DNA from: Candidatus Vecturithrix granuli
GTDB taxonomy: Bacteria > Moduliflexota > Moduliflexia > Moduliflexales > Moduliflexaceae
Length of the DNA stretch: 41,474 bases
Assembly (NCBI GenBank): GCA_000739535.1
Contig: DF820477.1
Span: forward strand, 135,511-176,984
Direction: 5' to 3'
Part shown: one piece after another, positions 20,252 to 38,001 of the stretch
Position numbering within the stretch: position 1 is the stretch's first letter
Layout: each line of letters opens with the position of its first letter
Notes under the pieces: model-generated
Database searches by the model: none
Told to the model about the DNA's origin: nothing
Seen by the model: only the letters and a program-made list of their open reading frames with translations
Position numbers and translations under genes: made by a program

Positions 20252-20389
20252 TTCTAACCATCGCTTGTAGCTGACTTTTGAAGGGTGGGCGTTGTTCGGG
20301 TGTGCTGCTGGGGCAAGGGTGTCCGCCGTCGTTTAGTGTCTCGCCAGCCGCAAGCGCCCTTCAAAAGCAGCTAAAGCGTGGCGTTAGTT
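20252..20389 (+). mobile_element. attC-like integron recombination site
   Basis: The 138-bp segment begins with TTCTAAC (R'' box, 20252-20258) and ends with the core GTTAGTT (20383-20389). Its arms fold on each other: CGCTTGTAGCTGACTTTTGAAGGG on the left is complementary to the right arm except for extra bases on the left, the pattern of extrahelical bases in attC sites. It lies 3' of the HEPN-like gene in the expected orientation. A matching left boundary GTTAGAA was not found upstream, so the cassette limits are unknown. Confidence 0.7.
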
Positions 20390-29078: not shown

Positions 29079-29567
29079 ACCACCATCGAACGGAATATAT
29101 CTTGCATAGCTGCCTGCCAATTGAGCATGGCGCAAAGCCATGCCTGTGCTGAACAGCCATGCCTCCGTCCGGAAAACTACTCTGCCCATGACAAAAGTCT
29201 TGGCAGGTTCGTCTGCGATTGTCATTGTATGTGAGAGACGGTTATGAATGAACCGCAGAAGAAGAAGTCATCGAATACCACGAAGAGCGCGCATGTCTTC
29301 ACGATGCTGAAAAGGCCCTGGAACGGTGAAGATGTCTCAGGAACAGACAGTATTCGTGCCATTCGTGCCATTCGATGACTCTTTTCAGCCTATCATGCCG
29401 TGTGAGCAGGAGGCTTGCCCTTGTGCTTCATCTCGAAAAAAACACGATGACCATGTAAAACGTCTTGACAGATTTACCTGCGATGCTCATTGTATGATAG
29501 AGACGGCTATAAAGCGAACCACAGAAATATGATGAGATGGACTTGTCTGGACGGTGAGGAGGATGCT
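29079..29567. repeat. Intergenic region with a duplicated ~62-bp promoter-like segment and a palindromic element (copy 2)
   Basis: Segments 29199-29260 and 29464-29526 are imperfect direct repeats (CTTGRCAG ... CATTGTATG ... GAGACGG ... GAACCRCAGAA). The second contains TTGACA and TATGAT and probably holds the xisH promoter. Between them, 29267-29379 is a palindromic element whose arms GTCATCGAAT match those at 8940-9022. A hairpin gcatggc-gcaaa-gccatgc lies at about 29126-29145. No complete gene is present. Confidence 0.65.
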
Positions 29568-29831
29568 ATGCCAGCGAAAGATATTTTTCATCATGAAGTC
29601 AGACGGGCACTGGAAAAAGACGGCTGGACGATTACCCATGATCCCGTATTTATTCGCTCCGGCGGCGTGCCGTTTCTTATGGATTTCGGCGCTGAAAAAA
29701 TGATCGCCGCCGAGAAAAATGGAGAGCAAATTGCCGTCGAGATCATCGGACAGGCTGCGATTCGCGATAATCAACTCAAACTCCTGGTGTATGATCCGAA
29801 AGAGGAGGTGATTGTCAGATGGCTGCTATAG
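29568..29831 (+). pseudogene. xisH: XisH family protein with internal deletion
   Basis: XisH proteins are PD-(D/E)XK-fold nuclease-like factors first known from the fdxN excision element of cyanobacteria and always paired with XisI. The 87-residue frame starts MPAKDIFHHEVRRALEKDGWTITHDPVFI, a clear XisH start with GAGGAGG ahead of it, and ends NQLKLLVYDPKEEVIVRW, a clear XisH end. The family is about 138 residues; about 50 residues between AVEI and IGQAAI are missing in frame. The removed part begins with the conserved Lys of VEIKSF, so the catalytic core is lost. The frame is open, so a shortened protein could still be made, but loss of function is likely. Confidence 0.8.
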
Positions 29832-31125: not shown

Positions 31126-31164
31126 AAATGCGTTCTTTTGCCCTTCACAAGCAAGATACTTGCA

Positions 31165-31344
31165 GTACAATGCTGTTGTTTAGCGTTGTTAGGAAAAAAG
31201 TGGTAAATGTTCTTGACAAGGCATAACTTTGAAACGACCATACGAAATTGTGGATGTCAAGAAAATGTATCAAAAAATGGTGACTTATGACACGTTCACC
31301 TGGATAACATGACAAAAGCATGATATCCAGAACTGGATAATAAC
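31165..31344. repeat. ~180-bp dispersed repeat, copy 1
   Basis: This segment matches 36835-37015 at about 85% by eye, including the blocks gcgttgttaggaaaaaag, tggtaaatgttcttgacaag, gtggatgtcaagaaaatg, cacctggataacatg and ctggataataac. Inside are inverted repeats CTGGATAACAT/ATGTTATCCAG (intact in copy 2) and TTATCCAG/TTGGATAA. It is non-coding, ends three bases before the integron cassette boundary at 31347/31348, and starts beside the LysR gene. The nature of the element is unknown. Confidence 0.85.
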
Positions 31345-31347
31345 TAG

Positions 31348-32134
31348 TTAGCGGTTATGCACGGACAGTGCGAACGGACACGATGAGAAATACAGTTGAC
31401 TGTTATGTAAATCGTGACACATGAGAAAACAACGACAGAGACACCATGAAAATAGAAAAAATAAGCGAAAATAAGAAACAGTTTCTTGATTTGTTGCTCT
31501 TGGCAGACGAACAGGAAAATATGATTGACAGGTATTTGACGCGCGGAGACGTGTTCGCTTTATATGACGATGATGTGAAAAGTGTGTGCGTTGTTGTGCC
31601 AATAGACGGCCAAACCTGCGAGTTGAAAAACATCGCGACAGACGAAAAATATCAGGGCAAAGGATACGGCACAGCATTGATACACTTTATTGTTGATTTC
31701 TACAAAAACGACTACAAAACCATGCTTGTCGGGACAGGGGACACCCCGGCAATTTTGTCATTTTATGAACGTTGTGGATTTGAGAAATCATATCGGGTCA
31801 AGAACTTTTTTACAGAGAATTACGACCACCCAATGTTCGAGGGAGACATACAACTTGTTGATATGATTTATTTGAAAAGAGATTTGTAAACAGACAGAAA
31901 ATAAGATATTTGAATAATCTTGACAACTCTGCAAAATCTGAGACTTTTCGAGCTATGCGATAGGATATTGAACTGTTTGGCAGAGATGACGTTTTGGGAA
32001 ATGACAAATAAGGAGATTGGTATTGAATCGCTAACGATCTGCTTGCACCGGAGCGCAAAGGGCGGGCAGAAAATTTGGTTGCTGTATGTCGGGCTTGGTT
32101 GCTGCCCGCCCTTTCCGCTCGGTGAAGCAGGGCG
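31348..32134 (+). mobile_element. Integron gene cassette carrying a GNAT gene
   Basis: The left junction is G^TTAGCG (31347-31353). The right junction lies in the attC core G^TTAGCC (32134-32140). In the circular cassette the core would read GTTAGCG, which is the exact complement of the attC R'' box CGCTAAC (32029-32035), the diagnostic relation for a real cassette. It contains one gene in the usual orientation with attC at its 3' end. Total length is 787 bp. No integrase gene is present in the window, so the cassette is either in an array lacking intI or was inserted at a secondary site. Confidence 0.88.
31446..31889 (+). CDS. GNAT family N-acetyltransferase (cassette gene)
   Basis: A 147-residue single-domain acetyltransferase. 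The acetyl-CoA binding loop is [15 protein letters not shown]-like ([22 protein letters not shown] near 75-96), followed by the [28 protein letters not shown] region typical of GNAT motif B. Similar small GNATs are frequent cassette genes and often acetylate antibiotics or small amines, but the substrate here cannot be predicted. It begins 98 bp inside the cassette left boundary and ends 140 bp before attC. The start codon has a weak ribosome binding site. Confidence 0.93.
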
Positions 32135-32140
32135 TTAGCC
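32029..32140 (+). mobile_element. attC recombination site of the GNAT cassette
   Basis: A 112-bp imperfect palindrome: R'' CGCTAAC, then arms 32036-32069 and 32102-32133, then core GTTAGCC. The two arms pair along CTGCTT-CACCG-AGCG-AAAGGGCGGGCAG with single extra G bases on the left strand at two places and an unpaired spacer next to the cores. These extrahelical bases and spacers are the features used by integron integrases to choose the folded bottom strand. The terminal loop is about 32 bases. Confidence 0.9.
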
Positions 32141-35776: not shown

Positions 35777-36103
35777 TTCCTCCTGACCTCTCTGGCATAT
35801 AGGCAGAATTACCCATGCATCAATGGGCAATGATGCTCATTGATTTTTAAGATGACAGGTATTTTATTATACACGAGAAGGTGACCGAATAGGAGCAACT
35901 TGAATGCTTCGGGCATGTTTCTATTTTTATCCCTTTTCGCTTTGATAAAAGCAACCATATAAGTATATCGAAACAAGGATGTGTTTATGGGTGGTGACAT
36001 ATACTTCTGCCTGTGATGAGCGTTCTGAATCACGTGAGTCTTGTGTTTCTCAATACGCTCTGATCGTCACACTCATGAACCATTCGCAAATGGAGGTAAT
36101 ATC
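35777..36103 (+). promoter_or_regulatory. Intergenic region with possible promoter for the secreted repeat protein
   Basis: A hairpin acccatgcatcaatgggcaatg occurs near 35813. TTGATA (35942-35947) and TATATC (35964-35969), 16 bp apart, form a moderate promoter about 135 bp before the repeat-protein gene. No gene is seen in this stretch. Confidence 0.4.
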
Positions 36104-36451
36104 ATGACAAAGGTGCTGAAATGTGGTGTTGTGTTCTTGCTGGTGGTTTTGTTGAGCGTCAGTTCTGCTCTTGCTAAGGACCAGAATCGAGACCAGAAGC
36201 GATCAAAAGATAGCTCTTGTCAGAGTAGTGCATCCCAGGATCGAGACCAAAACAAGAACCAGGATCAGGACAAAGATCAGGATCAGGACAAAGATCAGGA
36301 TCAAGACAAAGACCAGGATCGCGACAGATTGCAAGATGGTTCCTGTTTGCTCCTCCAGACTCAAGACCAAGATCGGGATCAGGATCAGAGCAAAGATAAA
36401 GACCAAAATCAGGATCGCGACAGACTGCAAGATGGCTCCTGTTTGAACTAA
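36104..36451 (+). CDS. Small secreted Asp/Gln/Lys repeat protein
   Basis: A 115-residue protein of unknown function. A strong signal peptide (MTKVLKCGVVFLLVVLLSVSSALA, cleavage after ALA) is followed by a low-complexity polar region of DQDK and DQDRDQ repeats. Three segments end in Ser-Cys: DSSC at 37-40, and two copies of DRDRLQDGSC at 72-81 and 104-113. The DNA shows tandem 18-bp units (gatcaggacaaagatcag) at about 36256-36320. The ATG follows GGAGGT. A hairpin terminator follows the stop codon. A role in metal binding, cell-surface or matrix structure, or redox through the three cysteines is possible but not shown. Confidence 0.8.
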   Translation: MTKVLKCGVVFLLVVLLSVSSALAKDQNRDQKRSKDSSCQSSASQDRDQNKNQDQDKDQDQDKDQDQDKDQDRDRLQDGSCLLLQTQDQDRDQDQSKDKDQNQDRDRLQDGSCLN

Positions 36452-36515: not shown

Positions 36516-36834
36516 CCCAAAGCTGAGCGAACATACCGAAAAAGGCATATCTTCAAGAGATCACTAAGTCCCATAAACAGATCCTTGTAAAGCATACCAA
36601 TGCCGTATCAGAGCATTTGCAGTGGTAATATGGATGTCACAGATGCCCGATACGAGCATTCGAATAGAGAAAGAATCTTCCCACAAACCCCACCTCATTA
36701 TCAGGTTGTGTGTCACACTATGAGCTTTATAACAGCGCGAAGCAGGCGGCGTTGGAACAGGTTAGCGTGACCACCAGCCCTCTTTTGCCCCACAGATCGC
36801 CCCGGACGCCAATACCTGGCTTCAGGTGCATAGC
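36516..36834. other. Intergenic region, possible degenerate attC
   Basis: No gene is seen. TTATAAC at 36727-36733, GTTAGCG at 36761-36767 and the later GCGTTGTTAGG (in the 180-bp repeat) are core-like sequences, but the arms between them pair poorly, so a real attC is not supported. Confidence 0.3.
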
Positions 36835-37015
36835 GGTATAATGCTGTTGTCAGGCGTTGTTAGGAAAAAAGTGGTAAATGTTCTTGACAAGGCATGGCTT
36901 TGAAATGATCATGCGAAACGGTGGATGTCAAGAAAATGCGTCAAAAATGGCAACTTATGACATGGTCACCTGGATAACATGGCAAAAGGTATGTTATCCA
37001 GAATTGGATAATAAC
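36835..37015. repeat. ~180-bp dispersed repeat, copy 2
   Basis: Second copy of the element at 31165-31344. It carries a perfect 11-bp inverted repeat CTGGATAACAT ... ATGTTATCCAG (36970-36999) and the palindrome TTATCCAGAATTGGATAA, which is decayed in copy 1. This suggests copy 2 is closer to the original sequence. It lies about 250 bp upstream of the CBS-domain gene. Confidence 0.85.
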
Positions 37016-37203: not shown

Positions 37204-37268
37204 GTGTCCACCAGAAACAACTAAAAGCATGACTAAACTATTCCATGACAAAATTACGGAGGTCTTGT

Positions 37269-37718
37269 ATGAAAGTTGTCGAAATCTTAGCTCAAAAATC
37301 CTCGCAAGTGTACACCATCAATCCCCGCAGTCTCGTTACAGAGGCGTTACAAATGCTTGATGCCAAACATATTGGGGCTTTGCTGGTCTTAGATGAGGAA
37401 CAGAAAATTCAGGGCATCATTTCAGAACGGGATATTTTGCATCTGTTCGCTGATGCGAAACGGTCAGCGCAAGATACGCGCGTGCAAGACATTATGACGC
37501 CCGCGTCCCGCTTAATCATCGGCGATAAAGATGATGAGGTCGAGTATGTCATGAACATTATGACGAACAATCGCGTTCGTCACCTGCCAATTATTGACAA
37601 GAAAGGGACGTTGGTCGGTCTCATTTCGATTGGCGACGTGATCAAGGTGCTGCTGAAAGATGCGGAATATGAAAAGAAGTTGCTCTTAGATTATATTCAA
37701 GGGAAATACCCGGCCTGA
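37269..37718 (+). CDS. CBS domain-pair protein
   Basis: A ~149-residue protein made of two CBS domains (about 12-62 and 75-130), forming one Bateman module. Motifs include SQVYTINPRSLVTEALQMLDAKHIGALLVLDEEQKIQGIISERDI and NIMTNNRVRHLPIIDKKGTLVGLISIGDVIKVLL. Such stand-alone modules bind adenosine nucleotides or SAM and regulate partner proteins. The ATG at 37269 follows GGAGGT. It has its own promoter and is followed by an attC-like palindrome at 37890, so it may be a cassette gene. Partner unknown. Confidence 0.95.
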   Translation: MKVVEILAQKSSQVYTINPRSLVTEALQMLDAKHIGALLVLDEEQKIQGIISERDILHLFADAKRSAQDTRVQDIMTPASRLIIGDKDDEVEYVMNIMTNNRVRHLPIIDKKGTLVGLISIGDVIKVLLKDAEYEKKLLLDYIQGKYPA

Positions 37719-37889: not shown

Positions 37890-38001
37890 TTCTAACGATA
37901 GGGTGAACCCAGCTTAAAAAGGCGACAGGGAAAAGTGGGTTGTATTTCTTCAGGCTCAGTGGCCGCAGCTTTTTTTCGCTGGTTATTTGTGGTCGTTAGC
38001 C
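37890..38001 (+). mobile_element. Possible attC site between the CBS and CMD genes
   Basis: The segment starts TTCTAAC (37890-37896), the same R'' as the site at 20252, and ends GTTAGCC (37995-38001), the same core as the GNAT cassette. CTAACGA pairs with TCGTTAG, and ACCCAGC with GCTGGTT one base short, followed by an A-rich/T-rich inner arm. Length 112 bp is right for attC. Pairing is less regular than at 32029, so this is probable rather than certain. The next gene starts 12 bp after the core, as cassette genes often do. Confidence 0.5.

Follow-up and report, generated by a model that had tools for sequence, protein, structure and literature searches.

A complete integron cassette joined to a repeated attI-like leader in Candidatus Vecturithrix granuli

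How does a single gene cassette come to lie among ordinary host genes, with no integrase beside it? The question is raised by a 41,474-nucleotide stretch of the Candidatus Vecturithrix granuli genome, the whole of which was analyzed here and is called the window (G000:C7:135511-176984, the right end of contig C7). The draft assembly comprises 8.38 Mb in 21 contigs, with gaps; its listed completeness is 93.8% and its listed contamination 10.75%, which leaves some doubt about where individual contigs come from. A sequence-only reading had described one complete integron cassette in the window, without an integrase in view (for coordinates, see Table 1). The window also contains an Acido-Lenti-1 RNA (RF01687; positions 6-51, 45.5 bits) and a low-complexity tandem repeat (36241-36445, DQDKDQDQ-rich) within the ORF at 36041-36451.

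Table 1. Coordinates of the cassette, the three leader copies with the units behind them, and the intact integrase genes (positions without a contig name are those of the window)
Feature	Position	Strand	Remarks
Left core site GTTAGCG	31347..31353	+	cleavage after G31347
Cassette proper	31348..32134	+	787 bp, from T31348 to G32134
GNAT acetyltransferase ORF	31446..31889	+	147 aa, acetyl-CoA motif QGKGYG
attC	32029..32140	+	R'' CGCTAAC 32029-32035, stem arms, loop, R' GTTAGCC 32134-32140
attI-like leader repeat, copy 1	31162..31346	+	185 bp, ends exactly at cassette boundary
Leader copy 2	36833..37014	+	85% identical to copy 1 over its length
CBS-domain ORF	37245..37718	+	between leader copy 2 and its attC; PF00571 4.5e-22
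Decayed attC of second unit	37890..38001	+	R1 36.2 bits, E 7.6e-9; R2 39 bits, E 1.1e-9
Leader copy 3	C16:25135-25265	-	83% identical to copy 1
Unit behind leader copy 3	attC C16:24425-24534		DUF2889 protein, then attC
Intact intI	C3:83860-84843		TIGR02249 450.9 bits (cut-off 265)
Intact intI	C13:256328-257284		TIGR02249 438.5 bits (cut-off 265)

We find that window positions 31348-32134 are one complete integron cassette, confirmed by its boundary, its GNAT ORF, and its attC. The left core GTTAGCG is the exact complement of the R'' box CGCTAAC and the right core reads GTTAGCC, both as the sequence-only reading had stated. R'' and R' boxes with AAC and GTT, an imperfect hairpin with bulged bases, an unpaired spacer, and a left core that is the complement of the R'' box in the same cassette are all present. 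The R'' box differs from RYYYAAC at its first two bases; R'' boxes elsewhere in the genome vary too. For 30 of 55 strong genomic attCs, a perfect complement of the seven R'' bases lies upstream, compared with 9% of decoy boxes, and these complements mostly fall exactly on the R' box of the preceding attC.

The bottom strand of the window attC folds into a hairpin whose loop is 32 nt long and whose stem carries bulged bases and unpaired spacers (-39.4 kcal/mol, z = -7.6; equaled by none of 200 shuffles), in agreement with the extrahelical bases and spacer noted earlier. When the cassette was compared with its own genome by BLAST, the attC alone matched, at some twenty other places, the best of them 93% identical. 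In an alignment of 15 attC sites from this genome, 96% of the cells of a 28-pair helix are paired, and 19 of the 28 pairs have changed on both sides. None of 500 shuffles matches the observed value on any measure of covariation, and pairing falls to 41%-51% if the partner is shifted by one to three columns. An independent covariance model (R2), trained on ten divergent attCs of this genome after exclusion of the window site and the four sites closest to it in sequence, scores the site at 91.3 bits (E = 1.4e-25), far from the background score that would have spoken against the sequence-only reading; the full model (R1) gives 112.7 bits and has no match at E ≤ 0.01 in seven unrelated genomes. 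Another reading would make the stem-loop a repeat of the host, for instance a terminator or intergenic palindrome, next to which the boundary is coincidental. We found no support of weight for this and regard it as scarcely credible: the stem-loop has no poly-T tail, its helix covaries, and like sites form arrays beside intact intI genes with matching boundaries; the array evidence refutes this reading.

The cassette gene matches PF13508 (7.3e-13) and the structure PDB 6ao7 (2.3e-25). Its nearest plasmid-borne relatives are 53%-60% identical and occur mostly in anaerobes. Its GC content (39%) is below the window mean (45%) yet inside the spread. The same GNAT gene with the same flanks did not turn up in many genomes lacking cassette boundaries; had it done so, this would have counted against a mobile unit.

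In the wider genome there are some 55-90 attC sites, part of them grouped in arrays and others standing alone; model R1 reports 93 attC-like sites, some of them weak, in 42 groups. Arrays are located on contigs C14, C15, C21, C18, C13, C3, and C20, and the many isolated sites are spread across 16 of the contigs. A third attC-like site of the window itself (20252-20389; 43.6 bits, independent model) follows a 228-aa ORF with no Pfam match.

The genome also encodes integron integrases: two intact genes, one that is catalytically altered, and two broken copies, on C14 and C18. The match of the genome's IntI to the IntI4 structure 2a3v has an E-value of 1.7e-93. Tyrosine recombinases use R, K, HxxR, H, and Y as catalytic residues, and all are present in both the C3 and the C13 protein. 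On C13 two intI genes stand in tandem, only one of them intact (L002 and L004; 256328-258508); the second carries R-to-Q, K-to-E, and H-to-R changes at catalytic positions and, judged from its sequence, is probably inactive. In the search of the genome contigs, no intI was found on C7 and no intI remnant on C7 or C16. The absence of an integrase thus holds for the window and fails for the genome: since intact intI genes lie elsewhere, it is an effect of the window. A genome search of the kind that the sequence-only reading had proposed thus yielded both intact integrases and dozens of further attCs, and its claim of cassette movement in this genome is supported by the arrays, the matching boundaries, and the intact intI genes, the movement being read from this anatomy. 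One locus (L033; C3:84830-88360) is a complete integron, with intact intI and an attI ending in ..GTCTAATTCAAA followed by GTTAGCC; the ORF of its long first cassette is caspase-like in appearance, as judged by eye only.

The core that had been named as the left boundary is confirmed, although the description was incomplete: the core stands at the end of an attI-like leader of which a genome search found exactly three copies. The first (nhmmer, E about 1e-40) contains an inverted repeat, CTGGATAACATG..CATGATATCCAG (hairpin z = -3.8), and the terminal sequence AACTGGATAATAACTA. Similarity among the copies ends at the cassette boundary, and all three are followed by one ORF and one attC on the same strand within 1.1 kb. 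For a random oriented point, the probability of an attC so near downstream is about 0.006, and for the two leader copies that were not chosen beforehand the chance is about 4e-5. GTT is kept at the same position in two of the three copies, where, as in an attI, the first cassette starts at the G^TT core. On C16 the cassette begins at that same GTT, with GTTTGGCG against the R'' box CGCCCAAC (one mismatch); leader copy 2 is followed by CCGAACG, its core GTT having decayed. A recurring CTGGATAA motif in the leader is only suggestive, on sequence grounds, of an attI accessory repeat. No match to the leader was found in plasmids, phages, or viral contigs.

None of the three copies adjoins an intI gene, and we therefore name the leader attI-like rather than attI. 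A second leader family offers a parallel. Beside the broken intI of C18, the attI can be located because the first cassette begins with GTTAGAAC, matching the R'' box TTCTAAC. Over the 74 bp that lead up to this core, the sequence has 97% identity with the head of the C15 array, in which one N may indicate an assembly join. On C11 (around 28670), the leader of C18, its intI-proximal part included, occurs again in front of two attCs without intI; copied attI regions without intI therefore exist in this genome. By analogy, the window leader may be a family of the same kind. In a genome of the same order, an intact intI is followed by ..CAATAACTT and then GTTAGGC, close to the ..GATAATAACTT that precedes GTT in the window; the two junctions are also written ..ACTATACAATAACTT before GTTAGGC and ..ACTGGATAATAACTT before GTT, respectively. 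In a profile comparison, the window leader and the C18 attI show no significant similarity (E about 7), and the short core motif AATAACTTGTTNGN has no genome-wide enrichment, for which reason we dropped it as an attI finder by itself; owing to these two results, the leader's role as an attI is put forward here as a conditional one.

Arrays of palindromes were likewise considered as a general mark of attI and set aside, being strong only at C8 and C14 (four palindromes each; two or more occur in 0.3% of random segments) and absent from the window leader. The leader of the C8 attC (L105; C8:75901) is an array of perfect palindromes TCGCTAGATCTAGCGA, and that of an array head on C14 (L040; C14:354401) has perfect palindromes TCGTATATACGA and TCTTATATAAGA. 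These arrays differ in sequence, and both precede CAGCCTAAnnCCT joined to GTTAGCCC; palindromes that resemble them are present upstream of the C13 intI. An isolated attC on C21 (L130; 20126-20264, minus strand) has an apparent left boundary after GTGACTATATAGTCAC-like repeats and TTATCCAGATAATAACATT, followed by GTTAGCC, a sequence that resembles the end of the window leader.

Since an ORF and an attC stand behind each leader copy, and since another leader family behaves alike, the most likely location of the cassette is an orphan, attI-like docking site. We put the probability that a single cassette was integrated there in trans by an integron integrase at about 0.6. Under this model, the attC of the circular cassette would fold into a bottom-strand hairpin, and IntI from an intact gene elsewhere (C3 or C13) would recombine it with the G^TT that ends the repeated leader. 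The cassette's own TTAGCG would then adjoin the leader, the displaced target TTAGCC would come after the attC, and the acetyltransferase gene would end up first behind the leader. An empty leader junction would read ..AATAACTA followed by GTTAGCC, with ..AATAACTA joined directly to GTTAGCCTGTGCAC. No empty site was found when the neighboring LysR gene was searched for in 40 genomes and in named genomes, which gave no syntenic locus; within the family, the nearest relative of LysR has 48% identity and a different neighborhood. An XisH-like ORF (29490-29831; PF08814, 1e-26) lies near this LysR gene. Recognition of the window leader as an attI, the action of the integrase in trans, and expression of the gene are steps that we infer.

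The locus might instead be what is left of a complete integron that once stood here, its intI deleted and its array shrunk to one cassette; such a degraded CALIN, with its attI kept, would have worked by the same chemistry but would by now be a relic. CALINs (attC-bearing cassettes with no intI nearby, as found here) are proposed in PMC9024848 to be degraded integrons in general; two intI loci of this genome are already broken, and leader copy 2 and its attC have decayed. We nevertheless consider this unlikely, given the lack of any intI remnant on C7 or C16, the differing, ordinary host genes that flank the three leader copies, and the good preservation of the window attC, whose 93% identical counterpart belongs to the C21 array. 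The leader site itself would have arisen either from an integron that lost its intI or as a duplicated docking site. Insertion at an ordinary secondary attG site, for which a degenerate GTT core suffices and the upstream repeat is irrelevant to recognition, was our first explanation. It is established that IntI inserts cassettes at attG sites, which are widespread (Loot et al. 2024, as cited in PMC12901181 and PMC12444791), and many attCs of this genome are isolated. However, the insertion point coincides with the end of a repeat that has three copies, with an attC behind every copy, where an attG would have a degenerate core and no integron-related flank; the explanation was downgraded once the leader had been found and now appears very improbable.

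The preferred reading, a docking site filled in trans, shares features with several known systems. As in sedentary chromosomal integrons, the cassette has one ORF, an attC of a genome-specific family, and G^TT boundaries, and arrays beside intI do occur in this genome; unlike in those integrons, many attCs are isolated. The unit resembles the IntegronFinder class of CALINs or single attCs that lack an integrase, and with one attC it falls below the usual CALIN threshold of two (PMC9024848). CALIN cassettes can be moved in trans according to PMC9668308. The window cassette differs from a CALIN in keeping an attI-like leader, present in three copies that are each followed by one cassette-like unit, and in the presence of intact intI genes elsewhere in the genome. 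Like an attG insertion in the sense attributed to Loot et al. (2024), it lies outside an integron platform, whereas its target is a repeated and loaded leader rather than a random degenerate core. Like an integron attI, the leader ends in a G^TT core after an AATAAC-like box, and another leader family of the genome is an attI beside intI; the window leader differs in having no adjacent intI, and its recognition by IntI is putative. It is the repeated attI-like leader that sets this case apart from both CALINs and attG insertions.

Cassettes that lack an integrase are usually taken for off-target insertions or for integrons in decay; in this genome they can be linked to repeated attI-like leaders, and one leader family is an intI-attI spacer of which copies stand where intI is absent. 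According to PMC9024848, attI sites beyond those of class 1 integrons are poorly described, for which reason sites like these would escape annotation tools. As a tentative and rather doubtful extension, the genome may hold dispersed orphan attI docking sites with one or few cassettes each, filled in trans by distant integrases. If so, integron-delivered genes would be placed beside many host genes rather than in one array, and if the leaders work in trans, many chromosomal positions could be fed by one integrase.
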